This document shows, in pieces, positions 13,294 to 57,625 of a DNA stretch of 64,000 nucleotides. Numbering within the stretch: position 1 is the stretch's first letter; the number at the start of each line of letters is the position of its first letter. The stretch lies in contig NZ_JANQNS010000008.1 of the NCBI RefSeq assembly GCF_028279465.1, forward strand, positions 124,001 through 188,000, read 5' to 3'. The notes under the pieces are model-generated. The model was not told where the DNA came from. It saw only the letters and a program-made list of their open reading frames with translations, and ran no database searches. Position numbers and translations under genes: made by a program. This DNA comes from Parasphingopyxis sp. (GTDB lineage Bacteria; Pseudomonadota; Alphaproteobacteria; Sphingomonadales; Sphingomonadaceae).

Positions 13294-14580
13294 CTAACGC
13301 GTGACGCCGATATCGCCGCTGCTCATCGCGCCATCATCTTCGGTCGGCGCATGGCGGCCGAATTCCCAGCGGGCGATGGCGCGGGCATGGACTTCGTCGG
13401 GGCCGTCGGCGAGGCGCAGCGTGCGCTGGCTCGCATAGGCGCGGGCGAGGCCCGGATCGGTTGTGACGCCGGCGCCGCCGAACGCCTGGATCGCGTCGTC
13501 GATGATATCGAGCGCCATTTGCGGGGCGGCGACCTTGATCATCGCGATCTCGTTGCGCGCCGTCTTGTTGCCGGCCTTGTCCATCATGTCGGCGGCCTTG
13601 AGGCAGAGCAGCCGATTCTGCTCGATGCCGATCCGCGCCTTGGCGACGCGCCATTCCCAGATCGAGTGATCGGCGATCGTCTTGCCGAACGCGACGCGCG
13701 ACTGGAGACGCTTGCACATCTTTTCGAGTGCTTCTTCCGCCACGCCGATTGTGCGCATGCAGTGATGGATACGGCCCGGGCCGAGGCGGCCCTGCGCGAT
13801 CTCGAAACCGCGGCCTTCGCCGAGAAGCAGGTTCGACGCCGGCACGCGGACATCCTTGAGGATGACCTCCATATGGCCGTGCGGCGCGTCGTCATAGCCG
13901 AAGACGGGCAGGTGACGTACGATCTCGACGCCTTCGGCATCGGTCGGCATCAGGATCATCGACTGCTGCTGGTGGCGCTGCGCTTCGAAGTCCGTCTTGC
14001 CCATGACGATCGCGACCTTACAGCGCGGATCGCCGAGGCCGGACGACCACCATTTGCGGCCGTTGATGACATAATCATCGCCATCGCGCTCGATCTTCGT
14101 TTCGATATTGGTCGCGTCGGACGAGGCGACCTGTGGCTCGGTCATCAGAAAGGCGGAGCGGATTTCGCCGTTCATCAGCGGGCGGAGCCACTGCTCCTTC
14201 TGTTCGAGCGTGCCGTAGCGATGGAAGACTTCCATGTTGCCGGTATCGGGCGCCGAGCAGTTGAAGCATTCGGACGCAATGCCGACCCGGCCCATTTCCT
14301 CGGCGCACAGGGCGTATTCGAGATTCGTGAGCTGTTCACCCTCAAACTCGAACGTATCGTCGACATGCGTCTGGCCGGAATGGGGCGGCATGAAGAAGTT
14401 CCACAGGCCCTTGGCTTTCGCCTTTTCCTTCAGCTCTTCGAGCGTATCGCTCGTGCCCCAGCGATTGTCGGGCGGGAACTCGGCGGCATAGTCATCGACA
14501 CGCGGCCGGACTTCCTCATCGATAAAGGCTTTGACGCGGTCGCGGAAATGGGTCTCGCGGTCCGAAAGGTTGAAATCCAT
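13294..14580 (-). CDS. Acyl-CoA dehydrogenase (ACAD10/11-like)
   Basis: 428 residues. Acyl-CoA dehydrogenase with the FAD/substrate motif [25 protein letters not shown], the helical domain [20 protein letters not shown] and the C-terminal [20 protein letters not shown] ... LADGPDEVH. The last motif, in place of IYEGTS, is characteristic of the ACAD10/ACAD11 branch, which handles longer or branched acyl-CoAs. It follows the GPH transporter by 30 bp on the same strand; AAGGAGACT precedes the ATG at 14580. A 414-residue open frame on the other strand (13351-14595) is only its shadow. Confidence 0.93.
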
Positions 14581-33607: not shown

Positions 33608-34372
33608 CTAAGCGAAATAGTCTTCGAAACCGTAACCCAGGCGCTCGCCGACGTCTTCCGCGATGGAGGTGAAGACGGCCTTATCCTCATCGCTCCAATC
33701 CACTTCGCTCAGCTTGAGGAATTTCGTCAGATCGCGGTCAGGCGCGGCTTCCGGTCTCTGCGAGTGCAGATACGCTGCCATTTTGCCGATCACATCCTCA
33801 TCAACGCCGATATATTCGCCGATCAACTTTGCAACGCTATCCGGGTCGGTGGCCAACTGGTGGAAATCGAACTCTACGAAATTTTCGTCAAGCTCATCCC
33901 GGATATCGAGCCAGGCGGCATTGGTGTCCGCCCATTCCCGCGTGTGATGGGCGATGTCCTTCTCGGGGAATTTCTTCAGCTTCGAATGTATATTGTCGAC
34001 ATGGCGGCGCGAGCAATGAATGAATTTCACATTCTTGTGGAATTTGTTCAGATCTGGCGCCGCTAGTATCGGCGTGATGGTTGGGGTTTTGTCGACGATG
34101 TATTCCGAGCCGATCTCTTCGACGAGATATCGCTCATATCCGTGGAACAAATGGCGCAGCAGAACGAAGGGGCGTAACTTGTAGAGTCCGTTCCCAGGCT
34201 CGTCATGGCCAAGGCCCGAACTATTGTGCCGGCGTATCGTAGCGATCATATCAACGAGTATGGGGGCCAGATGCCCCTCGCCATAACCTTTATACTGTGT
34301 TTCACCTAACGCGTTGCGGATGGCAGACGTGCCGGAACGCGTTGACCCCAATACATAAATTATCCCCGCCAT
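33608..34372 (-). CDS. Sulfotransferase-family protein
   Basis: 254 residues from the ATG at 34372, which directly precedes the first beta strand and P-loop (MAGIIYVLGSTRSGTSAIRN; AAGGG about 9 bp upstream). The longer frame to 34510 adds a sequence with no domain. GSTRSGTSAI is the PAPS 5'-phosphosulfate-binding loop, and VKFIHCSRRHVDNIHSKLK resembles the 3'-phosphate-binding region (R-x7-S). Sulfotransferases move sulfate from PAPS to hydroxyl groups, here presumably on the polysaccharide. Convergent with the epimerase, divergent from the repeat protein at 34581. Confidence 0.78.
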   Translation of the reverse strand: MAGIIYVLGSTRSGTSAIRNALGETQYKGYGEGHLAPILVDMIATIRRHNSSGLGHDEPGNGLYKLRPFVLLRHLFHGYERYLVEEIGSEYIVDKTPTITPILAAPDLNKFHKNVKFIHCSRRHVDNIHSKLKKFPEKDIAHHTREWADTNAAWLDIRDELDENFVEFDFHQLATDPDSVAKLIGEYIGVDEDVIGKMAAYLHSQRPEAAPDRDLTKFLKLSEVDWSDEDKAVFTSIAEDVGERLGYGFEDYFA

Positions 34373-34580
34373 CGAAGTTGACCCTTGTTTTGCGACCCTC
34401 TGCTTCTCGTTAGCATTATTCCGAAACATTGCCACGCCACCCATCCCCAAAAACGGTTCACGCTTGCAACTTACCGGGGATCGAATAAGCAGTAGAGAAG
34501 GAATCGGCACATCGGGGGATAAAGTTCTGAAGTCCGCGAGTTCTAAACAGGCGCGTGCGTGTGCGTTGGCGCGCGGTTTG

Positions 34581-35003
34581 ATGGATATCGAAAAGTCCGA
34601 CGACGATAGGGTCTCGGTCCCGACCGACGTTTTTCATTACATTGTTCAGCTAGCCGTCAAACCGTCATTCGATGAGGACGGCTATTTGTCTCGCTATCCC
34701 GATGTCGAGGCTGCCATCGCGCAAGGGGCTGTTCAATCCGGGTTTCACCATTTTGTCACCGCGGGCATCTATGAGAAACGTATTCCCTTCGCGTGTGAAC
34801 TGGACGAAGACGATTATGCAAATCGCTATGAGGATGTCGTGAAAGCCGTCGAAGACGGACGTTTTGCCAGTGTCAGAGAGCATTTCTATTCTGTCGGCTT
34901 TCGAGAGGGCCGGCAGTTCAAGCTGCGGAATGACGAGTCTGAGTATGATGACAATTTCGGCTTGGACATACTCGCGGAATCGTTGAAGAAAGACGCCGCT
35001 TAA
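34581..35003 (+). CDS. Small protein made of two Y-x-D / H-F-x3-G-x2-E repeats
   Basis: 140 residues. Residues 31-69 and 76-113 are two copies of a ~38-residue unit: YLSRYPDVEAAIAQG... HHFVTAGIYEKRIP and YANRYEDVVKAVEDG... EHFYSVGFREGRQF. The same unit occurs in the giant glycosyltransferase at 29020 and, degenerate, at the N terminus of the next protein. The start at 34581 lacks a clear ribosome site; upstream in-frame sequence has no domain. Its stop is 3 bp before the next ATG, so it is coexpressed with the two glycosyltransferases. It may be a docking or targeting module; function unknown. Confidence 0.75.
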   Translation: MDIEKSDDDRVSVPTDVFHYIVQLAVKPSFDEDGYLSRYPDVEAAIAQGAVQSGFHHFVTAGIYEKRIPFACELDEDDYANRYEDVVKAVEDGRFASVREHFYSVGFREGRQFKLRNDESEYDDNFGLDILAESLKKDAA

Positions 35004-35006
35004 ACC

Positions 35007-36491
35007 ATGCCGAGCGAGTTCAAATTTCAGAATTATGCACAGGCGAATGCCGATCTACTCGATGTGTTCGGCGAAGACGAAGAATCTCTGAAACGACATT
35101 ATGAGAAGCACGGTCGTGGCGAGTTACGAGGCGTGCAGGTCGATCGCTATTTTCAGATCGAGAATTTTTTCTGCTCCGACCAAGGCGATATTTTTATCGC
35201 GGGTTGGGCCGACCGCCGTATTATTCAAACGCTGCAGCTTCGCATGGAAGTTGGCTATCTAAGCTTCGATTTGGATACGGATGGCGTGTGCTGGTATGCT
35301 CGGCCGGATGTCGACGAAGTGCTTGGCAATCAAGGAGCGGCCAATGGCTTTATTGCGATTCTGAAAATTCCGGCCGAAGACAGCTTTTTTGTGCATTCCG
35401 AGGTCAATCTCTATCTGAGAAACTTCAAGGTCCATCAAGATCCCGCCAGTCGTTGGCTCTCGACTGGAAAATTCCTTGACCAGGCATTGGGTGCCTGCGC
35501 TGTTCTCGCGGCGCATCCGATTGGCGATACGCTTGCGATCGGAGCGCAACTCTATGACCGGATCGAACCGATCTGGAAAACGGTTCTGGCAAATCAGAAA
35601 TTTGCCAAGATGGTCGATACAAGGGGCGATGCGGATGTCGATCAGAGCATTATCATCACGATATACAGGAAGCCGGCAATGTTGCTCGTGCAGCTCACTG
35701 AGCTCGCGGATTTCCTGAAAGAAGGCAGCGCCGAGGTTATCGTGGTTCTCAACCAGGTTCCGGACCCGGTCGGCCTCGTCAACAACGTGCTCGCATTCTG
35801 CCAAATCCACGATATCAGGCTCTCGCTATACGTCTGTACGGGCAATTCCGGTTTCTCTGGCGGCAATAATCATGGCGCCGAAGTGGCGCGCGGCGATACG
35901 CTGATTTTCATGAATCCCGATGTGTTTCCACCAGCCGAGGACAAGGAAGCCGCGCTCAATTTTCTAAAGACAGACCCCGGCGACGCCCTGCATGGCGGCC
36001 TTCTCTATTATGGCGAGGGGCTGCTCATGCATTCGGGCATGTATGTCGTCAGGGAAACGGTGATGAACTCCCGGTCCGGAGAGACAGGCAACGCCCTTCG
36101 TGTCGAACATTTCGGCAAGGGTCTGTCCCATCATATCGATGATGACGAAGCGGGACTCGATCGGGCCTTGATGAATGTGCGCAAAGACGCGTGCATCGTG
36201 AGCGCGGCGCTCTGGAAAGTCCGCAAGGATCGGTTTTGGGCGCTTGGCGGCCTGCCCACAGATTATATCTTTGCCTATTACGAAGACGCTGATTTCTGTC
36301 TGCGCTGGATCGCGGCAGGTGGCGATATCGTGGTCGATCGCGACGCGCGATGGATTCACCTCGAAGGGGTCGGCAAGGCCATGTCGCCCTCGGTCCGGTC
36401 CTTCATGTGGCTCAATCGCGTGCACTTTTCGAAGAAATTCGAGTCCTGCGATCAAGTAGTCGACATCGTTTCGGACCAGGCACTACTATGA
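35007..36491 (+). CDS. Glycosyltransferase family 2-type protein
   Basis: 494 residues. The N terminus (8-41) is one repeat of the type seen in the preceding gene (ANADLLDVFGEDEES... HYEKHGRGELRG). From about 210 on there is a GT-A fold GT2-like domain: IIITIYRKPAMLLVQLTELA, EVIVVLNQVPDP, TGNSGFSGGNNHGAEVARGD, the D-x-D-like FMNPDVFPP, and YIFAYYEDADFCLRWIAAGG. The first catalytic strand (D-G-S) is replaced by NQVPDP, slightly atypical. Its TGA overlaps the next ATG (36488-36491). Confidence 0.85.
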   Translation: MPSEFKFQNYAQANADLLDVFGEDEESLKRHYEKHGRGELRGVQVDRYFQIENFFCSDQGDIFIAGWADRRIIQTLQLRMEVGYLSFDLDTDGVCWYARPDVDEVLGNQGAANGFIAILKIPAEDSFFVHSEVNLYLRNFKVHQDPASRWLSTGKFLDQALGACAVLAAHPIGDTLAIGAQLYDRIEPIWKTVLANQKFAKMVDTRGDADVDQSIIITIYRKPAMLLVQLTELADFLKEGSAEVIVVLNQVPDPVGLVNNVLAFCQIHDIRLSLYVCTGNSGFSGGNNHGAEVARGDTLIFMNPDVFPPAEDKEAALNFLKTDPGDALHGGLLYYGEGLLMHSGMYVVRETVMNSRSGETGNALRVEHFGKGLSHHIDDDEAGLDRALMNVRKDACIVSAALWKVRKDRFWALGGLPTDYIFAYYEDADFCLRWIAAGGDIVVDRDARWIHLEGVGKAMSPSVRSFMWLNRVHFSKKFESCDQVVDIVSDQALL

Positions 36492-37804
36492 CGGATCGCC
36501 CCATCAAGTATTTAAGCGTCTCGCTGTATCATCCGCGCGTGATGCGTGGCGGCGCCCAGTTCGTCGCGAAGGATATTCATGACGCGGCGGTGCGCGATGC
36601 GAATTTCGATCCGGTTATGCTCGCTGGCATCGATGGTCAGATGTTCCCGCAATATGCCAAGGTCGGCTCCGCGATCACGGCTCTTCCGGATAGCGCCAAC
36701 GAATACATATTGGCCGGCCAGAAATTCGACGATTTCTTCCACACGATCTACGATCAACGGCGCAACAAGGCGGTGGCCCGATTCCTCGAAGATCATCAGC
36801 CTGACGTCATTCATGTACATCATTCAATTTGGATCGGCCTCGAATTTTTGGAACTGGCCCGCAAGATCCTGCCCAACGTCAAGATCATCTACACGCTGCA
36901 CGAATATGTCGCGATCTGTAATTCGCGCGGCCAGCTTTATCGTTATCACGAGAACGGCATCTGCAACGATTCATCACCGGATCAGTGCGTGAAATGCTTT
37001 CCTGACCGGTCTGCGGAAGAATTCATATTGCGGCGGCGCATGTTCAAGCGGGCCTTCGGTCTCGTCGATCATTTCATCGCGCCGTCCGCGTACCTTCGAC
37101 AGCGCTTCGTCGATTGGGGCATTCCGAAAGACAATATTTCGGTCGTACCGAACGGTCATAAGAGCGTGCGGCCTGACGACTGGACGCCTAAGGCGAGCGC
37201 GTCGCTGAACGTCTTCGGTTTCTTTGGACAATTTGTCGATGCGAAGGGGATCGACATATTGCTGATGGCGGCGCGCGTAGCCGCTGACAGGGTCAAGGAG
37301 GATATCGAGGTCAAGATTTTCGGCGGGAATAAACAGCACGCGTCCGAAGACTATGTGGCGCGTATTGAAGCTATACTCGAAGACGCGCCCAAAAATCTCA
37401 CGGTACGCGAAATGGGCTCCTATTCGCGGCGCAACGTGTTCGATCTCATGACCGGGATCGATTGGGCGGTCGTGCCCTCGGTATGGCCGGAAACCTTCGG
37501 ATTAGTCGTGTCGGAAGCGTGGGATGCGCGCCGGCCCGTTATAGCGGCGCGCGCGGGCGGCCTCGACGACCGCATCGTCGACGGAAAGAATGGCCTGTCC
37601 TTTCCGCCAGGGTCGACCGAGCGGCTCGCCAACATTATCGAAGACTGTATCGGCAATGCGGACTTATGGGATCGCTTGCGATCCGGGATCAAGGATGAGA
37701 TCACTGTAGATGCGGCCTGGCAGGCGCATGTGGACATTATTGAATCGCTCGGCGTGAAACGGGACCCTAAGGTAGTACAACTTGATTCGGCGGCGCGCAT
37801 CTAA
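36488..37804 (+). CDS. Glycosyltransferase family 4
   Basis: 438 residues, GT-B fold retaining transferase. Acceptor domain: YHPRVMRGGAQFVAKDIHDA, HVHHSIWIGLEFLELARKI, KIIYTLHEYVAICNSRGQ, then a CNDSSPDQCVKCFP segment with three cysteines common in this subgroup. Donor domain: FGFFGQFVDAKGIDILLMAA and the E-x7-E motif in VWPETFGLVVSEAWDARRPV. I start at the ATG at 36488, which overlaps the previous stop by 4 bp; the longer frame to 36350 lies inside the previous gene. It completes a three-gene unit (34581-37804). Confidence 0.92.
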   Translation: MTDRPIKYLSVSLYHPRVMRGGAQFVAKDIHDAAVRDANFDPVMLAGIDGQMFPQYAKVGSAITALPDSANEYILAGQKFDDFFHTIYDQRRNKAVARFLEDHQPDVIHVHHSIWIGLEFLELARKILPNVKIIYTLHEYVAICNSRGQLYRYHENGICNDSSPDQCVKCFPDRSAEEFILRRRMFKRAFGLVDHFIAPSAYLRQRFVDWGIPKDNISVVPNGHKSVRPDDWTPKASASLNVFGFFGQFVDAKGIDILLMAARVAADRVKEDIEVKIFGGNKQHASEDYVARIEAILEDAPKNLTVREMGSYSRRNVFDLMTGIDWAVVPSVWPETFGLVVSEAWDARRPVIAARAGGLDDRIVDGKNGLSFPPGSTERLANIIEDCIGNADLWDRLRSGIKDEITVDAAWQAHVDIIESLGVKRDPKVVQLDSAARI

Positions 37805-37974
37805 TTGCCGCCGGCAGCACAGATAATCGGAGTGCCTGTAATCGTGGGCGTATCGCATAAGCGATGGCTGGACGATCATGGACATTCACTATCGTGATCG
37901 GGAGATCGCGATATATGTTTGGGTTTCACTATAGATATTCTCGCCGGTGAAACGGCGTCGACCTGGAGTAAAAA

Positions 37975-38991
37975 ATGGCCAAAGTGCAGCATTCTTCCGA
38001 AGATCATATCAAGAGCTTGTATCAGTGCCTGCTTTTGCGGGAACCGCGGGAGAAAGAACTTAAACACTGGGCGTCCCAGCTCGATGAGCACGGCCTTTCG
38101 TTTGAAGATGTCTTTTACCGGATTCAGAATTCAATAGAGCGCTCCGCGCATAGCCATGTCGTGCCGGGCCATCCCCCCGGTCACTACTATTCGCCGATCG
38201 TGGATCCGGAGGCTATACGCGACCGGTTCAATATCGATCGCGGAAGGTCAATCGAAACGCTTCCCGCCCTCAATGTCAGCGCTGCCGAACTGCAAGAGCG
38301 GTTCCAGCAAGTCGCGCCGTTCATTGGAAAGCACAAATTTCCGGAGCACAAGACGGACGGTTTGCGTTACTATTACGACAACGGCTTCTTCCCGCTCGGC
38401 GATGCGGTCATGCTGAGTGCGATCATCGCGCACAACAAGCCGGCAAAGATTATCGAGATCGGATCGGGCTTTTCAACGGCTGCGATGCTCGACGCGATCG
38501 ATCGGGATGGGCTCGATACGCGCGTCATGTGCGTCGAACCTTATCCCGCCCGATTGCGCGAAAATCTGACGGAAGACGACGCGAAAAAAGTCACGATTAT
38601 CGAGAGTCCCGTCGAAGCAACGGATCCGGCGCTCTATTCCACTTTGGAAGCGGGGGACATTCTCTTCATCGATTCCACCCACGTTCTGAAAACCGGGAGC
38701 GATGTCTGTTTCGAACTGTTCGAGATTCTACCCGTCCTGAAACCCGGCGTGCTCGTGCATTTCCATGATATCCACTATCCGTTCGAATATACCGATAGCT
38801 GGGTATTTGAATTCCGGCGGTCCTGGAACGAGATCTACGCGGTCCGTGCATTCCTGATGTATAATGACAGATTCAAGATCGTGTTCTTCAACAATTATTT
38901 TGGAACGCATCATCGCGATCAGATGGCCGAAGCTTATGGCGAGCCGGTTCCGCAGACCGGCGGTGGCCTTTGGCTCGAGGTGCAGGCTTAG
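37975..38991 (+). CDS. Class I SAM-dependent methyltransferase with DUF4214-like N terminus
   Basis: 338 residues. Residues about 10-55 (IKSLYQCLLLREPREKELKH... GLSFEDVFYRIQNS) resemble the DUF4214-type helical module common in bacterial surface-glycan and S-layer proteins. The C-terminal part is a Rossmann methyltransferase: motif I AKIIEIGSGFSTAAML, acidic loop VMCVEPYP, motif IV GDILFIDSTHV, and LVHFHDIHYPF. It probably methylates a sugar or the glycan end. The 170-bp gap upstream shows no clear promoter to my reading. A strong inverted repeat lies 50 bp downstream. Confidence 0.85.
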   Translation: MAKVQHSSEDHIKSLYQCLLLREPREKELKHWASQLDEHGLSFEDVFYRIQNSIERSAHSHVVPGHPPGHYYSPIVDPEAIRDRFNIDRGRSIETLPALNVSAAELQERFQQVAPFIGKHKFPEHKTDGLRYYYDNGFFPLGDAVMLSAIIAHNKPAKIIEIGSGFSTAAMLDAIDRDGLDTRVMCVEPYPARLRENLTEDDAKKVTIIESPVEATDPALYSTLEAGDILFIDSTHVLKTGSDVCFELFEILPVLKPGVLVHFHDIHYPFEYTDSWVFEFRRSWNEIYAVRAFLMYNDRFKIVFFNNYFGTHHRDQMAEAYGEPVPQTGGGLWLEVQA

Positions 38992-39040
38992 CTTGTCGAG
39001 AGGCCCGCGGCCGCGGATCGCAATGACAGATCGTTCTGAT

Positions 39041-39067
39041 TCGGCGCCCCCCAAAGTCGGGCGCCGA
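39041..39067. terminator. Candidate bidirectional terminator hairpin
   Basis: TCGGCGCCC and GGGCGCCGA form a perfect 9-bp stem with a 9-base loop between the convergent methyltransferase (ends 38991) and sulfotransferase (ends 39088) genes. There is no clear T tract on either strand, so termination is inferred from position and stem strength. Confidence 0.45.
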
Positions 39068-39087
39068 TCGGAAAAAGCGCGTATCGA

Positions 39088-40293
39088 TCAAGCCGATTGT
39101 TTCAGCACGAAGCCTTTCGATCGAAGCGCGCCCAATGCCATATCCGCTTTTTCGGCTGCTTCTTTCCGCTCTTCGTTGAAGGCCAGCGCGCGCGATCCGG
39201 CGCTATCGAATGCGCGATCATCCTGCTCGCTGAGCCATAGCGCCTTGATGAAAATAGACCGGTTCTCATCGGAATTCTCGGGTTCGGTGCCTGCCGGCGC
39301 TGTGCTGAGTCCGGCGCGCTTCTCATATCTTTTCAGCTCATCGCTCAACGCTTCGGCTACGGCGTGGATCTGATCGGCCGAAAAAACGAACTGGTCATCC
39401 CGATTTTCATTGGAAAACCGCGCGATATAGTCCTCGGCTTCGCCGGGCCGCGGATGCTCTTCCGCCGGCACCAGTTCGAGATATTCGGGATCTTCCATTT
39501 CGCTATGCATGCGCTCGAGAAAGACAGTCAGCTCGTCGCGCGATAGCGGCGGCGTTTCGGACTTGATATCCGGCAAAGCGTGACAAAGCGGGTCGCTGAC
39601 AAATCGCCGCGCCAGGCCGCCGAAATGTGCGTTGAAAATAAGCTGCAGTTTCAATTCTGAATTGGTCAGCGAGCGGTTGATATTATTCACCGGGGGCCGC
39701 GGCAGTGAGCCCGACACCAGCCCAAGCCAGTTCTCGAACGTTGCGAGCAAATTCTTCTTGTGCCGCGTGTAATTGAGGACAGTTGTGTCTGCGCCGCATT
39801 TGCGAAGTTGACGAAGCACGGTCTTCGTCTCCGAAGGATAGCGGTAGGACTGCATGAAATCAGCCAGTGTGCCGGTGAAACCGCCGCGTTTGACGCGTTG
39901 CTGGTAACCGGAAACGACATGATCGACCGGATCACGCAAATACACGAGTGTCTTGATCTCGGCGTCAGGACATTCGGCGGAAATGCGATCGAGGAAGCCA
40001 GAGCCTTCTCTGACCAAGAGCTGAAAAATCGACTCGCTGGAAATCAACCAGCCGGGCAGGTCCGATTGGCGGCCTCTCTCGATGAGTGCGGTGAATGCTC
40101 CAGGCTTCGGATAGAAATTTCCGGACGTTATGAGGCCGTTTCGCGCCTTTTCCGATTCGGTTTCGTCGATCGGATAATGGATCTTATGATCCGCGAGCGT
40201 CTTTTCCGCATTCGCCAACGACGACTGAATGAAACTGGAGCCGGTCTTCGGACTGCCGATATGTAAATAGATTATCTTCGGCGAATTACGCAT
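39088..40293 (-). CDS. Sulfotransferase-family protein with a separable C-terminal domain
   Basis: 401 residues. P-loop LHIGSPKTGSSFIQSSL at 11-27 and VYLRDPVDHVVSGYQQRVK as 3'-phosphate-binding region identify a PAPS-dependent sulfotransferase fold. The body spans about 1-300. The last ~56 residues (IKALWLSEQDDRAFD... ADMALGALRSKGFVL) align without gaps to the complete 72-residue protein encoded at 40684, so this is a fused accessory domain. ATG at 40293; ribosome site weak. Sugar sulfation is inferred from context. Confidence 0.82.
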   Translation of the reverse strand: MRNSPKIIYLHIGSPKTGSSFIQSSLANAEKTLADHKIHYPIDETESEKARNGLITSGNFYPKPGAFTALIERGRQSDLPGWLISSESIFQLLVREGSGFLDRISAECPDAEIKTLVYLRDPVDHVVSGYQQRVKRGGFTGTLADFMQSYRYPSETKTVLRQLRKCGADTTVLNYTRHKKNLLATFENWLGLVSGSLPRPPVNNINRSLTNSELKLQLIFNAHFGGLARRFVSDPLCHALPDIKSETPPLSRDELTVFLERMHSEMEDPEYLELVPAEEHPRPGEAEDYIARFSNENRDDQFVFSADQIHAVAEALSDELKRYEKRAGLSTAPAGTEPENSDENRSIFIKALWLSEQDDRAFDSAGSRALAFNEERKEAAEKADMALGALRSKGFVLKQSA

Positions 40294-40683
40294 CGTGATC
40301 CATTGGCAAGAATGGTGATTATGGCACGAGTCTATCGAGCCTTGGCTCCGATATCTACAACGGGCATTCTTAGCGCGTTACTCGAAATACTATTGTCCGT
40401 GAAGAATGATTTACCGGGCACGTGATACCAACCTGACGCCATGCCGATGGACGTGGCCATAGCCATGATTTGGCGCGGATCACACACTTCCATGATAGGC
40501 ACCATATGTTCCCGGTACCACTTTCGGATCCTTATGCTTTGGCGTCGGCAAGGGTGTTTCAGCCGGGCTGGTGACTGAATTCGATATTCGTCGTCTACAC
40601 CGGATTTTCGCGGTTTTTTGCGCGTTGCAATTTCAAAAACGCTTGGTTAGAACTCCCATGAATTTACGCTTAGGAGTACAACA
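40294..40683. other. 390-bp intergenic region before the 72-aa gene
   Basis: Divergent region between the sulfotransferase at 40293 (minus) and the small gene at 40684 (plus). It is AT-richer than its surroundings, especially near 40605-40665. No supported ORF, RNA or repeat was found. AGGAG at 40672-40676 is the ribosome site of the small gene, and TTGCAA near 40625 is a weak -35 candidate. Promoters for both genes must lie here. Confidence 0.5.
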
Positions 40684-40902
40684 ATGGCCGAAAAAATTGA
40701 ATTGACCGACGCTGATAAAAAAGCCCGTCCTGCACTCGCGCGCGCCCTTTGGTCCGCCGAGCAGGGCGACAAGAAATTTGATGATCAGACCGCGAAGCAG
40801 GAAGCCTATCAGGCCGAAAAAGCGCCCTTCGTTCAGAAGGCGAACAAGGTGCTGCGGCAGCTGAAGTCGCGTGGCGTCAGCCTGGTTCAGGAAGAATCGT
40901 AA
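40684..40902 (+). CDS. 72-residue helical protein homologous to the sulfotransferase C-terminal domain
   Basis: Well-formed gene: AGGAG 7 bp before the ATG, and a charged, helical product without signal or membrane segment. Residues 15-69 (RPALARALWSAEQGDKKFDD ... LKSRGVSLVQ) align without gaps to the C terminus of the sulfotransferase at 39088 (RSIFIKALWLSEQDDRAFDS ... LRSKGFVLKQ), with 19 identities in 55 positions by hand count, including A-L-W, E-Q, F-D and S-x-G. It looks like a stand-alone copy of that accessory domain, perhaps acting in trans on other sulfotransferases. No named family recognised. Confidence 0.8.
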   Translation: MAEKIELTDADKKARPALARALWSAEQGDKKFDDQTAKQEAYQAEKAPFVQKANKVLRQLKSRGVSLVQEES

Positions 40903-41003
40903 GCCGGCTTGGCAGCCCTATAAAATCGGTGGATTGGTGCGGTCACCGCTGCCGGACTGGAGATTGAATCTGATCCCGGCATTGCAACCTGTCGGTCGTG
41001 GCC

Positions 41004-41867
41004 ATGACCAATAAGCTCGATTTCATTGTGTTCGGTATGCCGCGCGGTGGTACGAGTGCCACCGCGCGCTACCTTTCCGCGACCCAGCATATCCATTGCG
41101 GCGTCGAGGTCTTTCCACCCAATATCGATCATTCGGAGATTTCGGTTCCCGACGCGTTTATCGCGTTCGAGCACGATCGATGGCGGTCGACATCCAAGGA
41201 CGAAGTCCTTTCCAGAGGAGACGAGATTCGGTTCTTCGGCAACAAAACGCCCAACTATTACAATCGGTTGAATGGCATTCTTGCCGAACTCGATAACTGT
41301 CCGGCGATCAGCTGCGTTCGCGACCCTTTTGCGGTTGCCCGCTCGTACAACGCCCGGGCGGCGAACCGTAAGGACCCATGGCAGAAAGGGCGGCGCGGCG
41401 TATTTGCCATAATGGATACTATTTCGCTCTTGCGCGCTTTGGTGCACGCACCGGACGACGCCAATATCTTGATCGCGCCGCACCAGTGTCTGCTCGACGA
41501 CTGGCGTTCGGCAGTGAAGCGGATGGCGGAGCATGTCGCGCCCGCAGTCCCCACCGCATTCGAAAAATCTCGTGTCATGCGGATCAACCAGATCAAGCGG
41601 AAGCAGGGCAGGAAAGTCAAAACCGAACTGCAGGACTTTGAAGCCGAACTGGTCGGTGATCTGGTCGACAGCGGATTTTCTGCTCTTTTCGACTCAAAAA
41701 CGCATCTGCTGTTGAGCGATGTGAAGGGTCAGATCGAGGATATTCTGAGCCAGTTTGAGGAGCGTGGCCTCGCTGGCGTGGACGAAGCTGTGTCCCTCTA
41801 TGGAGAGGACGATGTCGTCAATTATTATAAACGCTGGCACAATATAACGCAGCGCCTCGACGATTAG
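41004..41867 (+). CDS. Sulfotransferase-family protein
   Basis: 287 residues. FGMPRGGTSATARYL near residues 10-24 is the PAPS-binding loop; AISCVRDPFAVARSYNARA provides the R-D-P and Ser of the 3'-phosphate-binding region. The rest is helical with KRKQGRKVKTELQDFEAELV. ATG at 41004 is preceded in frame by a GTG at 40998; neither has a strong ribosome site. It lies 101 bp after the 72-residue protein gene on the same strand, so the two could be cotranscribed. Acceptor unknown, presumably glycan hydroxyls. Confidence 0.8.
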   Translation: MTNKLDFIVFGMPRGGTSATARYLSATQHIHCGVEVFPPNIDHSEISVPDAFIAFEHDRWRSTSKDEVLSRGDEIRFFGNKTPNYYNRLNGILAELDNCPAISCVRDPFAVARSYNARAANRKDPWQKGRRGVFAIMDTISLLRALVHAPDDANILIAPHQCLLDDWRSAVKRMAEHVAPAVPTAFEKSRVMRINQIKRKQGRKVKTELQDFEAELVGDLVDSGFSALFDSKTHLLLSDVKGQIEDILSQFEERGLAGVDEAVSLYGEDDVVNYYKRWHNITQRLDD

Positions 41868-41986: not shown

Positions 41987-43021
41987 TTATTCGTTTTCCT
42001 CCGCTGAAACCCGGTCGAGTTTCTCTTCCAACTCTACGACTTGTTCCTGCAGCGCATAGATCATCTGCAGGAGCAAACGGTTCATTTCCCAGTCCGAGGC
42101 TTTTCTCGGCTTGTCCTCGGGTTGGTGAAATTCGAGCGCGGGCTCGCCGCGCTCTGTCAGCAGCGTGTTGACATATTCGAGATCGTCGGCCTGGCTGTCC
42201 TGAAACTTCTGAAGCTGCTCAACCGACGGCAAGAGATCTTCAATCGGCAGGCAGCTGCGATCTTCATTCGGCATGATGCCCAACCGTCTGCCGGTATCCA
42301 GAAACTCCGTGGGCATCACTTGGCCGGCAAACTTGTTGTTGAACACCGCCCATGCGGCGAGAACGGCATTGGACGGCGCGACATTGGCCCGGATGGTTGG
42401 TACGGGTTCCAAGCCCGCCAGCTCAAAAAAATGAGCCGCGACATCATCGATGGCGTCGAAATTATAGGTTTCGATATTCGGAAACAGACGCGCCCATCTC
42501 GCCAGGGACTCGCTATACCCCGTTATGCTATCAGGCGCCCATTCGTCGAAGCTCTTGATACGCCCGCGATACGGCTTGAACTTGATCGCATTCTGGACAT
42601 AGACGCTCCGTGCCCATTTATCATGGCGGCGAACATAGCAGACCGGTCGAACAGCAACGCCATCGTCCGCTAATCGCTTGATAATGTGGATGATCCGGCC
42701 GTGCCGGGTCAAAAAGGCCTCATTGCTCCAAATGACCTGGCGATAGCCTTTCCGGCCGAGCTGTTCGAGCTTGTCGCGCATGAAAGTATAGACTTCGTCG
42801 TCGACGCGTTCAGGCTCTTTGGTCCGGAAATATTTTTGCGGCGCACGATTTACCGACCAGTCGAACTGACCCTCTTGCGTCAACTGTTCCAGCATTAATC
42901 CGGCGTAACGGCAGTCCTGCGCGATGAGCGCCTTCGCGTTGTGCCTGAGCGTGAACTGGATCGATGTCGAACCGGTTTTTCCGGCGCCGATATGCAGCAA
43001 TAATTCAGGCGTGTCTGACAT
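41987..43021 (-). CDS. Sulfotransferase-family protein with C-terminal coiled coil
   Basis: 344 residues. LLLHIGAGKTGSTSIQFTL at the N terminus is the P-loop, nearly the same as in the proteins at 39088 and 56594; RPVCYVRRHDKWARSVYVQ is the likely 3'-phosphate-binding region. The last ~40 residues (LLLQMIYALQEQVVELEEKL) form a coiled coil that suggests oligomerisation. AGGA lies 7 bp before the ATG at 43021. Next to the rfb operon on the same strand but separated by 102 bp. Confidence 0.82.
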   Translation of the reverse strand: MSDTPELLLHIGAGKTGSTSIQFTLRHNAKALIAQDCRYAGLMLEQLTQEGQFDWSVNRAPQKYFRTKEPERVDDEVYTFMRDKLEQLGRKGYRQVIWSNEAFLTRHGRIIHIIKRLADDGVAVRPVCYVRRHDKWARSVYVQNAIKFKPYRGRIKSFDEWAPDSITGYSESLARWARLFPNIETYNFDAIDDVAAHFFELAGLEPVPTIRANVAPSNAVLAAWAVFNNKFAGQVMPTEFLDTGRRLGIMPNEDRSCLPIEDLLPSVEQLQKFQDSQADDLEYVNTLLTERGEPALEFHQPEDKPRKASDWEMNRLLLQMIYALQEQVVELEEKLDRVSAEENE

Positions 43022-52591: not shown

Positions 52592-53743
52592 TCAGGTCTG
52601 GATCAGTCCGTTCGCAACGGGCGTCGTTCCGGCTGCTGGGAATACTGTGCGGCGGAGCAGGCCCGGTTCGATTGCGAAATGGTCGGCGACCAGGTCGGCG
52701 AAAAGCCGGTCGAGCGATCGGGTCGGCTGCAGGTCGCGGCCCTCGAAGAGGTCGGCGGGCCTGAGGCCGGGCCAATCCGCAACGACACTGCCGCCGCGCA
52801 ACGCGCCGCCGAGCACCAGCGCCGCCGAGCCGGTTCCGTGATCCGATCCCTGGGTGCCGTTGGGGCGGACGGTGCGGCCGAATTCGGTCGCCACGATCAC
52901 CAGCGTGTTCGACCAGATCGGCCCGAGCCCCGAGTGCAATGCAGCGAGCACCGCGTCGAGCGCTTCGAACCGGCGGTTCAGCCTGCGGCGTTGATCGCGA
53001 TGCGTGTCCCAGCCGCCCATTTCCATCGCCGCGATCCGCGGTCCCTCGGGATCTGAAAGAAAGCGGGCCGCCAATTCCCCGGTTGCCGCTTCGCCGCGTC
53101 GTGCGCCTTCGACATCGCCCGCCAGTTCGCGGGTTTCGGTCGCCTGTTCCCAATCCGCATGCAATTCTTCATCGCCTTCATACAGCATCGCCACACGTGA
53201 CAGCAGCCCGACATCGGGTTCGGGCAATCGGGAGGGCGCGTAAGACGACGCCTCGGCTTCGCCGCGCAGAACCATCGGCATGTTGGACGACAGGGCCAGG
53301 GCTTCGGCTTGCTGCCCGGATAGCAGGCCGGCGAGCCGGTTCATCCACCCGTCGCGCAGGCCATAGGGTGTCGTACCGGCGGTTTCGAGAATATTCTGTC
53401 CATCGAAATGGGAGCGATCTCGATAGGCCGATGCGACGGCGTGGAAAATGGCTGCGTCGCCGGATGCGTAGAGCCGGGCAGTTTCCGCCAAGGCCGGATG
53501 CAAAGTGAAAAAACTGTCCAGTCGCGCGCCGCCCTCACTATGCCCGGCGAAATCGCGGCGCGCGGTCTCATATTGCGGGTCACCGGTCGGCGCGACCATC
53601 GACAGCGCATCGGCCGCACCGCGCAGAATGATGAAGACCAGCCGCCTGTCGGTTTCCGCCTGGGCGCAGGCGATATGCGGCAGGAACACCAGGCTGGCCG
53701 CACCGGCCGCGCCGTTCCGCAAGAATCGTCGACGATCGATCAT
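52592..53743 (-). CDS. DUF1501 protein with twin-arginine signal
   Basis: 383 residues from the ATG at 53743 (GGAG 8 bp upstream), which gives a twin-arginine signal MIDRRRFLRNGAAGAASLVF cleaved near CAQA. DUF1501 features: RLVFIILRGAADALSMVAP, MGGWDTHRDQRRRLNRRFEA and TLVIVATEFGRTVRPNGTQG with SDHGTGSAALVLGG, an alkaline-phosphatase/sulfatase-like fold. Biochemical role unknown. It follows the DUF1800 gene by 4 bp; the two families nearly always occur together. Periplasmic. Confidence 0.9.
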   Translation of the reverse strand: MIDRRRFLRNGAAGAASLVFLPHIACAQAETDRRLVFIILRGAADALSMVAPTGDPQYETARRDFAGHSEGGARLDSFFTLHPALAETARLYASGDAAIFHAVASAYRDRSHFDGQNILETAGTTPYGLRDGWMNRLAGLLSGQQAEALALSSNMPMVLRGEAEASSYAPSRLPEPDVGLLSRVAMLYEGDEELHADWEQATETRELAGDVEGARRGEAATGELAARFLSDPEGPRIAAMEMGGWDTHRDQRRRLNRRFEALDAVLAALHSGLGPIWSNTLVIVATEFGRTVRPNGTQGSDHGTGSAALVLGGALRGGSVVADWPGLRPADLFEGRDLQPTRSLDRLFADLVADHFAIEPGLLRRTVFPAAGTTPVANGLIQT

Positions 53744-53747
53744 GGTC

Positions 53748-55187
53748 TCATCTCCGCAGGAATTCGGGCGACACGAGAAGCAACGCAAGCCCCTGGTCGG
53801 CGCTTTCGGCCCCGGCGATGATCCGCGCTGTCCGGCTGCTCAACATGGTGCCAAGAAGCTGGGGCGCGAGCGTGCGCGCATCGATCCGGTCCCGGCTGAC
53901 TTCCGCGACGCGCTGTGCGATCTCGACGCGCGAGGCGAGCGCCGCTGCCCCGGTCCAGCTGTCCGCCACATCGTCAAAACCGGCAGGCGATCCTGGCCTC
54001 CAGGTCGGTTGACCCATTTCGTTGACGAAGCGTCGCGTCAGCTGGCCGGCACCACGTTCGCCCAGCGCCCGAAAGGTCGATATCGTCCATTCCCAGGGCG
54101 TTTTGAACTTGAGAGGTGCCTCGACCCAACATTCTTCGGCGTCGATCAGCACGCGATACATTGCCGGTAGATCGCCGCCGCTGTTGCGATAGGCCGATGC
54201 AAGTCGGTCGATGAGGGCAGCGGGCGGTTCGTCTCCGGCGAAATGCCGGGCCAATTTGGTCGCGAGATGCCGCGCCGTAGAGGGATGCGCGGCGAGGTCG
54301 GCGAGTATCGCCTCGGCCTGCGCCCGTCCGGATTGCGCGTAGGTGCGGCCCATCAGTCGGCGCGCGCCGGGTTCGTGCAAAGACTCGGCAAAGCCAAAAC
54401 CGCCCGGCTGGACCGACGTGTCGAACATGCGATCCGGCACCGCACGGACGAGCCCGGCGATCGTCCATCCGGTCAATGCGCGCGCAAATTCCGTAACATC
54501 GGCTTGCGAGTAGCCGCCGTCGACGCCGAGCGTATGCAGCTCCATGATCTCGCGTGCGAGGTTTTCGTTAAGCCCCATCTCGCGCCTGCGGCGGCCGCGG
54601 CCCCGCTGGGTGAAAGGCGAATTGGGCCCGATAGACCGCGCCTGATTGAGATAGAGCAGCATCGCCGGGTCGCGCGTCACGGCGAGCAGCATATCGTGAA
54701 ACCGGCCCATGACATTCGGACGGATCGCGTCGAACTCCATCAGTCCGCCAAGCCGGAGCAGCTCGGGCCCATTGACCGAAATTGCGAAATGATTGGTCCA
54801 GAAATGGACGAGCCGTTCGGCAAAAGGTGTCGACGTGGTTAGGGCCATGCGGACCCGGGCATTGATCAATTCCCGGTGGCGGGCGCGGCCCGACCGGTTG
54901 GCCATTCGCCGCGTGTCCATAAGCTGCGCGTCGACATTGCCTTCGGAGGACGTGCGCTCACCCCTACGTCTTTCGCGTCGTTGGCGGGTGAGTTCGGAAA
55001 TTTCGGCGCGATAATCGAATATCTCTCCGGTGAGCAACTCGCGCGATGGGGCATTCCGCAACGCGGCGGGGCTTGGGTCGAAGGCATCGAGCTGATCCGC
55101 GAGCCATTGGCGCGGGGCGCGCAAATCGCTTTCCCCGGGCCGTGCTCCAAGGCCGAAGCGGTTCAATGCGATTACGGATTCGGTCAT
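53748..55187 (-). CDS. DUF1800 protein
   Basis: 479 residues. NRFGLGARPGE at the start, FWTNHFAISV, FHDMLLAVTRDPAMLLYLNQ, GLNENLAREIMELHTLGVDG, YSQADVTEFARALTGWTI and LIDAEECWVEAPLKFKTPWE are characteristic DUF1800 sequences. No clear signal peptide on this start; function unknown. Partner of the DUF1501 protein, which would be exported by Tat. The pair is inserted between methyltransferase genes of the glycan locus. Confidence 0.9.
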   Translation of the reverse strand: MTESVIALNRFGLGARPGESDLRAPRQWLADQLDAFDPSPAALRNAPSRELLTGEIFDYRAEISELTRQRRERRRGERTSSEGNVDAQLMDTRRMANRSGRARHRELINARVRMALTTSTPFAERLVHFWTNHFAISVNGPELLRLGGLMEFDAIRPNVMGRFHDMLLAVTRDPAMLLYLNQARSIGPNSPFTQRGRGRRRREMGLNENLAREIMELHTLGVDGGYSQADVTEFARALTGWTIAGLVRAVPDRMFDTSVQPGGFGFAESLHEPGARRLMGRTYAQSGRAQAEAILADLAAHPSTARHLATKLARHFAGDEPPAALIDRLASAYRNSGGDLPAMYRVLIDAEECWVEAPLKFKTPWEWTISTFRALGERGAGQLTRRFVNEMGQPTWRPGSPAGFDDVADSWTGAAALASRVEIAQRVAEVSRDRIDARTLAPQLLGTMLSSRTARIIAGAESADQGLALLLVSPEFLRR

Positions 55188-56335: not shown

Positions 56336-56593
56336 CTATTCACTCTTTCCTGATTTGTTTGCGGCAGTGATTTTCCGCGCTGAGGTCGAATTAGCGCATA
56401 TGCCAACGGCGGCGTCAAAGCAAAACGCGATATCGTGGAGATGTGCGGTTCTTTCTGCCGGTATATCGGTTGCTCCATCTTTCGATCCCATATACGGGCC
56501 TCGAAGACGTTCCGTGTCCAAACCAGTGCTGCTCGCAAGGCGCGACTGAACATCTTTGTCATCGATCCGTTTTGGCTTGAAGGAAGCCCATAT

Positions 56594-57625
56594 ATGCCAC
56601 GAGCCATTCTCCATATCGGCATGAACAAAACCGGGTCGACATCCATCCAGCACTCGTTGACTGGTTATGATGACGGCGTATCGCGATATGCGCGTTTATC
56701 GGCTCCCAATCACAGCCAACCCTTGTCGACGATATTCATGGAGAGGCCGGAAAACTCGGTAAACTGGAAGAGAATCGGCGCACCGTCCGAGAAAATACGG
56801 GCAGCGCGCAACAAGTTTCGGGACCAGCTCGACGCCGAGCTGTCTCACGACAGGCGGACCTTCATCCTCTCGGCTGAAGAGTTGTGCATGCTCGATCATC
56901 GGGAGGTCGAAAACCTCAAAGCCTATTTCGAAGCGCGGGACATCGCGGTCGAAGTCATCGCCTATGTCCGGGAACCTATCGGTTTCGCGTCGTCGGCACT
57001 TCAGCAGCGTATCAAATCCGGTCTGGCCAAATTCGGCGTAGCGCAACCCCATTACAGATTCCGTTTCGAATCCTATCTGGATGTTTTCGGCCGGTCGGGC
57101 GTGCGGTTTCTGCCATTCTCCCGCGCCGATTTCGACCAAGGATCGGTCGTTCGCGATTTCGCCCGAAGGCTGAACCTGGACCTGGGCTCGATAAAGGAGC
57201 GAACCGCGAATGAGAGTATTGCCGCCCCGCTCGTTGCCATCCTCTTTTTCTGGAATCAGCACCCTGCTTCGATCGTGAATTCGCAAGACACAGTCGTGGC
57301 GCGGCGTTTGCTGATCCGGGAGTTGTCGCCGCATTTCGATGGCAAATTCAGATTATCCGACGCCATCATACGCCGCAAACTGGACGAGGAGGATATTCGT
57401 TGGATGGAGCAGGAAAGCGGCATTAGGCTAATGCCTGACGCTGCACCAGTGGAAGGCGAGGGCGTCTCGGGAGAGGCCGATCTGGAGGTTTTGACAGCGC
57501 AAACCGTGCCTATCCTGTCCCAGATGCTACGCGACAAGGGCCTTGTCGTGCCGCCCGATGGCGATCCGCTGAAGATGATGACGCGCCTTTACCGTATGTT
57601 TCTTCGGCAGCGTGCGGAGCACTAG
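56594..57625 (+). CDS. Sulfotransferase-family protein
   Basis: 343 residues from the ATG at 56594 (AAGGA about 10 bp upstream), which leads straight into ILHIGMNKTGSTSIQHSL, the PAPS-binding loop, shared in form with the proteins at 39088 and 41987. The middle includes EVIAYVREPIGFASSALQQ, the likely 3'-phosphate-binding region. The frame upstream to 56435 has no domain. Divergent from the AbrB-methyltransferase. It marks the right end of the glycan locus. Confidence 0.82.
   Translation: MPRAILHIGMNKTGSTSIQHSLTGYDDGVSRYARLSAPNHSQPLSTIFMERPENSVNWKRIGAPSEKIRAARNKFRDQLDAELSHDRRTFILSAEELCMLDHREVENLKAYFEARDIAVEVIAYVREPIGFASSALQQRIKSGLAKFGVAQPHYRFRFESYLDVFGRSGVRFLPFSRADFDQGSVVRDFARRLNLDLGSIKERTANESIAAPLVAILFFWNQHPASIVNSQDTVVARRLLIRELSPHFDGKFRLSDAIIRRKLDEEDIRWMEQESGIRLMPDAAPVEGEGVSGEADLEVLTAQTVPILSQMLRDKGLVVPPDGDPLKMMTRLYRMFLRQRAEH

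Follow-up and report, generated by a model that had tools for sequence, protein, structure and literature searches.

A small helical module, free-standing and fused to a sulfotransferase-like protein, may help organise sugar sulfation in bacteria

In sulfated bacterial polysaccharides several sulfotransferases have to act on one polymer, and how they are brought together is, to our knowledge, an open question. A locus of Parasphingopyxis sp. raises this question in a particular form, as a sulfotransferase-like protein with a C-terminal extension is encoded there next to a small protein, which the original prediction took to be a free-standing copy of that extension and a possible adaptor or recruitment module for glycan sulfation. 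Are the two segments homologous, to which family do they belong, and is that family linked to sulfation? The window in which we addressed these questions is the whole stretch of 64,000 nucleotides (contig NZ_JANQNS010000008.1, positions 124,001 to 188,000), and coordinates given with a strand, or as belonging to the window, refer to it.

The larger gene (39088..40293, minus strand) encodes P0001, a sulfotransferase-like protein of 401 aa in which an N-terminal PAPS-sulfotransferase part is followed by a linker and a C-terminal helical module, and the smaller gene (40684..40902, plus strand) encodes P0002, the free-standing copy of 72 aa. Both ORFs lie where the original prediction had placed them, and the divergent intergenic region between them (40294..40683, GC 0.49) is, as it had said, 390 bp long. 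The fused copy, recognised from its alignment with P0002 and from helices in the structure model, comprises P0001 residues 345-399 (39094..39258, minus strand); a presumed flexible linker between the catalytic part and the module, at about residues 327-341 (39268..39312, minus strand), is assigned with low confidence from its composition and its lack of predicted secondary structure. Local alignment of P0001 residues 345-399 with P0002 residues 15-69 is ungapped, with 19 of 55 positions identical exactly as had been counted by hand, and its BLOSUM62 score of 89 compares with a mean of 27 (s.d. 5, maximum 58) for 3000 shuffles. Within the whole genome (3.3 Mb, 21 contigs) P0002 matches itself and the P0001 tail (E = 1.9e-5), and the next place has E = 0.42; that third place, antisense to a membrane-protein-like ORF, is not credible. 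The small gene looks real, judging from a likely ribosome-binding site just 5' of its ATG (AGGAG, 40671..40675, plus strand), a GC3 of 0.64 that equals that of the neighbouring genes, and stand-alone homologues elsewhere. A consensus search of the 390-bp gap found no sigma-70-like promoter, and an Rfam search of the same gap found no match to a non-coding RNA.

The P-loop residues K16, T17 and G18 of P0001 and its 3'-phosphate residues R120 and S128 are invariant or nearly so in an alignment of ten proteins. We call the protein sulfotransferase-like by motif and homology only, because it falls below the Pfam gathering cut-off (13.4 bits against 27 for PF13469), as does its distant relative P0003 (21.4 against 22.8 for PF17784). 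Its nearest relative, QEW23969 of Marinibacterium anthonyi pLA6_007, is 42-45% identical, ends before the module, and is encoded next to a homologue (L022:16108-17043) of the sulfotransferase that lies downstream of P0002 in the window.

When plasmids were searched with P0002 by tblastn, one weak match was obtained (E = 0.4), on plasmid NZ_CP133485.1 of Acuticoccus sp. MNP-M23, where it falls on the C-terminus of P0003, a sulfotransferase-like protein of 465 aa. A profile built from the two window segments finds this tail at E = 1.8e-6, and a three-row profile finds P0005, a stand-alone family member of 79 aa on the same plasmid, at 6e-4 to 6e-3. This 24-kb plasmid also carries dTDP-rhamnose genes, a rhamnan-synthesis F family gene, glycosyltransferases and several sulfotransferase-like genes; by these comparisons, the pairing of a free and a fused module recurs in another order, the Hyphomicrobiales. 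On plasmid pS3B of Thalassococcus sp. S3, the stand-alone member P0008 is encoded 98 bp downstream of a sulfotransferase-like gene, and searches of plasmids with other family members added little new. A five-row profile gave matches at E <= 0.05 in 36 of 395 genomes of the Rhodobacteraceae (or its equivalent), and in about 25 of these E was under 1e-3; the family is assigned from one match whose record coordinates coincide with those of Thalassococcus S3. The two-segment profile finds five Rhodobacteraceae proteins at 1e-7 to 2e-6, while a profile of Rhodobacteraceae proteins from glycan loci only ranks P0002 (E = 4e-14) and the P0001 tail (0.0024) ahead of every non-member, and a profile of ten proteins linked to dnaG-rpoD finds P0002 at 1.3e-5. 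Because the two-segment and the Rhodobacteraceae-only profiles recover each other's members, the homology is independent of the rows that were chosen by eye. By pairwise score L072 is nearest to P0002, and a tree built from 31 members of the family groups P0002 with the P0001 tail as its sister (support 100/96), so that it is fair to speak of a copy, as the original prediction did, with the fused copy on a long branch.

Several candidates were set aside: the tails of P0006 and P0009 appeared by eye to be degenerate copies, are statistically not significant and were excluded from the counts, and L088, an internal match within a sulfotransferase, was discarded. The window's own family gave three false matches, two of them to ribosomal protein L9 linkers and one to an unrelated protein. 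No true member turned up among nine further genomes of the genus sample or the remaining genomes of the family samples, so the module is foreign to the Parasphingopyxis lineage. Back-translation scans of genome contigs and viral contigs found nothing, and a search of phage records gave no match. The original prediction recognised no named family, and we likewise found no family covering the module in Pfam, NCBIfam, PHROG or PDB sequences, where the PHROG matches were confined to one member each, and no description of it in open-access papers. As far as sequence comparison and structure prediction go, the module is an undescribed family of helical hairpins of about 55 residues.

In the alignment of the 31 members, an aromatic residue is conserved in helix 1 (90%) and another in helix 2 (100%), followed near the end by L or M (100%) and G (94%). 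P0002 has both aromatics and the L-x(3)-G-hydrophobic end (W23, Y42, L60, G64, V65), and the P0001 tail has W, F, L, G and F at the same aligned positions. The AlphaFold2 model of P0002 consists of helices at residues 9-30 and 35-62, with a mean pLDDT of 69 that denotes moderate confidence. In the model of full-length P0001, the catalytic part failed (mean pLDDT 39), and the tail, after a coil, forms helices at 342-355 and 365-392 (pLDDT about 67-83); in these models of moderate to low confidence, the tail is thus predicted to fold independently of the catalytic part. A fold search with the module model gave no match.

To assess the genomic context of the family, we considered up to 18 kb around each member, labelling neighbours by similarity to the proteins of annotated plasmids and of the window, together with 40 size-matched control regions, drawn with at most a few exceptions from the same genome set. 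Sulfotransferase or other glycan genes (counted were sulfotransferase, glycosyltransferase, UDP-galactopyranose mutase and sugar-nucleotide genes) occur within 9 kb in 11 of the 16 loci that are not linked to rpoD, against 3 of the 40 controls (Fisher p = 8e-6). Sulfotransferases themselves are found in 6 of these 16 loci against 1 of the 40 controls (p = 0.0014), their detection being slightly favoured near members in that the references came from related loci, and the sole control with sulfotransferases shares its contig with a module member. Locus L089 has a further sulfotransferase-like neighbour, recognised by eye alone. The check named in the original prediction, whether a profile of the two segments leads to proteins fused to or lying beside sulfotransferases and glycosyltransferases, gave a positive answer, and the proposed glycan link is supported for one part of the family but not for another: ten Rhodobacteraceae members (L065, L074, L076-L079, L082, L083, L085, L086) adjoin dnaG-rpoD and lack any glycan gene over 9 kb. 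L070, L072 and L084 have other neighbours and no clear glycan link, and L071 lies at a contig end. Because of the ten dnaG-rpoD members, the family is not specific to sulfation. As a separate observation, five sulfotransferase-like matches (L122, G734:C16:60000-78100) occur on a 104-kb contig that also carries the free member L080.

The strongest hint of a functional link comes from cassettes of equivalent content. Locus L068 contains, in order, genes for a glycosyltransferase, a sulfotransferase of the Acuticoccus P0004 type, a tail-less sulfotransferase of the P0003 type, a third sulfotransferase, and a divergently oriented module of 71 aa; L067, also from the Rhodobacteraceae, has the same sulfotransferase set and a separate module gene. 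In L087, again from a Rhodobacteraceae genome, the glycosyltransferase and the P0004-type sulfotransferase are followed by a P0003-type sulfotransferase of 455 aa that bears the module at its C-terminus and aligns with Acuticoccus P0003 over its full length, module included, and no free copy was found in the region. The P0003-type proteins of the L067 and L068 loci are tail-less orthologues, 36-38% identical to those of the L087 and P0003 loci, and the two arrangements form a split and fused pair. Because P0001 belongs to a different subfamily, whose nearest relative has no tail, the module was fused to sulfotransferases at least twice. The sister relationship of P0002 and the P0001 tail, together with the tail-less nearest relative, suggests that the small gene next door gave rise to the fused copy of P0001, although the long branch of the tail calls for caution.

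The genes of the island in the window have a GC content of 0.54-0.56 compared with 0.63 in the flanking genes, a contrast that fits horizontal acquisition. Downstream of P0002 lie a sulfotransferase of the Sulfotransfer_3 type (40998..41867, plus strand; PF13469, E = 1.7e-9) and a sulfotransferase-like gene of the Acuticoccus P0004 type (41987..43021, minus strand; 26-28% identity, E 1e-18 to 1e-20), a type that accompanies fused or free modules at other loci, and farther away a P0003-type sulfotransferase-like gene without the module (56435..57625, plus strand; E = 2.6e-26 to P0003). The genes at 33608, 34464, 39088 and 40998 (window 33608-41867) have close-set counterparts on L022, from the Rhodobacterales plasmid pLA6_007 of Marinibacterium anthonyi. 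One of them (34464..35003, plus strand) encodes a free-standing protein with two 'YPDV..HF..GY.EGR' repeats. This repeat of about 45 residues has no Pfam name and is found free, or N-terminal on a sulfotransferase or on glycosyltransferases, in such loci (besides window 34464-35003, at L023:11659-13116 and 13305-13697, L022:22460-22966, L068:3073-5640 and L087:4254-6812). A gene pair that by look only resembles DUF1800/DUF1501 (window 52592-55187) adjoins the sulfation locus, and an annotated DUF1800/DUF1501 pair stands beside a sulfation locus on a Rhodobacter plasmid (L009:4449-7020). Two Acuticoccus plasmids encode, within their exopolysaccharide loci, another repeated domain with the motif 'HPAFY..E.......WMGR' (L008:8875-10980, L013:322-870), and a Pfam search with the three-copy protein of L008 gave no match.

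At polysaccharide-sulfation loci, then, the module as delimited here is either a stand-alone protein of 70-95 residues or a C-terminal sulfotransferase tail after a linker. We propose, as a reading that has a real chance of being right though somewhat short of an even one, that it is a protein-docking surface through which sulfotransferases are tied to one another or to the assembly machinery. The aromatic residues of the two helices and the C-terminal L-x(3)-G-hydrophobic edge would form a small binding surface, whose shared partner may be another copy of the module or a component of polysaccharide assembly or export. As a tail, the module would tether the sulfotransferase that carries it, and the free copy would serve the tail-less sulfotransferases of the cluster. 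A host of the sphingomonad type would have received the module along with the entire sulfation island, and it was probably in that host that the neighbouring small gene gave rise to the fused copy, as the tree and the tail-less relative suggest. Docking is supported by the homology of the segments, the recurrence of free and fused forms, the split and fused cassettes, the fusion in a second subfamily, the enrichment in context, the two-helix models and the GC content of the island; against it count the ten dnaG-rpoD members, the neighbours of L070, L084 and L072, the last being nearest to P0002 by pairwise score, the lack of a fold match, the moderate or low confidence of the models, and the very basic nature of several rpoD-linked proteins, which would suit nucleic-acid binding. 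The wider claim, that a new docking module organises bacterial polysaccharide sulfation, with free and fused copies gathering several sulfotransferases in one complex, and was recruited from an older Rhodobacteraceae family adjoining rpoD, we think unlikely, if worth stating.

Other explanations draw on the same observations. The module could be a dimerisation domain, the free copy modulating oligomerisation or stability of the fused sulfotransferase in an allosteric or chaperone-like manner without recruiting enzymes; sister copies stand side by side in the window and small amphipathic helical hairpins often dimerise, but in L067, L068 and the rpoD-linked members the module exists only as a free copy, in L087 it is fused and none free was found in the region, and we regard this explanation as rather doubtful. 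Roughly as doubtful is a regulatory protein, binding nucleic acid or associated with RNA polymerase, whose free copies would tune expression of the island or of the rpoD region and whose fused copy would provide feedback from the enzyme. The ten members beside dnaG-rpoD, the very basic nature of several of them (pI about 10) and the divergent orientation of the window's small gene over its 390-bp intergenic region would fit such a role, whereas the glycan-linked copies have a net charge near zero, the copy fused to P0001 is acidic (pI 5.0), searches gave no match to a DNA-binding family or fold, and regulators are not typically found as C-terminal tails of such an enzyme. It is less probable still that the module binds the acceptor glycan, a lipid carrier or PAPS and raises the processivity of sulfation in the manner of a carbohydrate-binding module: the conserved aromatic columns and the position of the fusion after a linker agree with this, but known carbohydrate-binding modules do not resemble a pair of short helices, and the rpoD members have no glycan context. 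Finally, short charged alanine-rich helices do match spuriously, as shown by the L9 linkers that the two-row profile finds at E about 0.002-0.006. Nevertheless, these linkers become sub-threshold once members are added to the profile, and a convergent low-complexity helix in accidental neighbourhood is highly improbable, and refuted for the homology of the two window segments, given the shuffle scores, the reciprocal profiles, the recurrence of fused and free forms and the enrichment in context.

Under the docking reading, the module may help organise sugar sulfation. A module that occurs free, fused, and split or fused when equivalent cassettes are compared is a textbook indication that proteins are functionally linked, and such a role, if true, would give a function to a family left as 'hypothetical protein' in databases. 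A module of 55 residues is also easy to test.

Among known systems, the PAPS-dependent sulfotransferases (Pfam Sulfotransfer_1/2/3/4) share with P0001 the P-loop KTG and the 3'-phosphate R and S, and the neighbours of P0001 pass the Pfam cut-off; unlike these enzymes, P0001 stays under the cut-offs and carries a C-terminal module that is outside all such models. The undescribed small proteins beside dnaG-rpoD in the Rhodobacteraceae have the hairpin motif in common with the window module, but differ in having no glycan genes nearby, in being often strongly basic, and in that no fused form was seen. The RyR domain and the phage 'W..R' small proteins have a similar overall look, with a Trp helix and then a helix ending in L-x(3)-G-hydrophobic; a relation to the RyR domain (PF02026) was not supported, as none of the 31 members matched it when scanned at E <= 0.01. 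The 'YPDV..HF..GY.EGR' repeat resembles the module in being found both fused, at the N-terminus of a P0001-type sulfotransferase of Gemmobacter fulvus p5 (L023:11659-13116), and free (13305-13697), whereas its sequence is unrelated, its position is N-terminal, and it also occurs on glycosyltransferases. That sulfation loci repeatedly show such modules in both fused and free form makes the idea of an adaptor more plausible.
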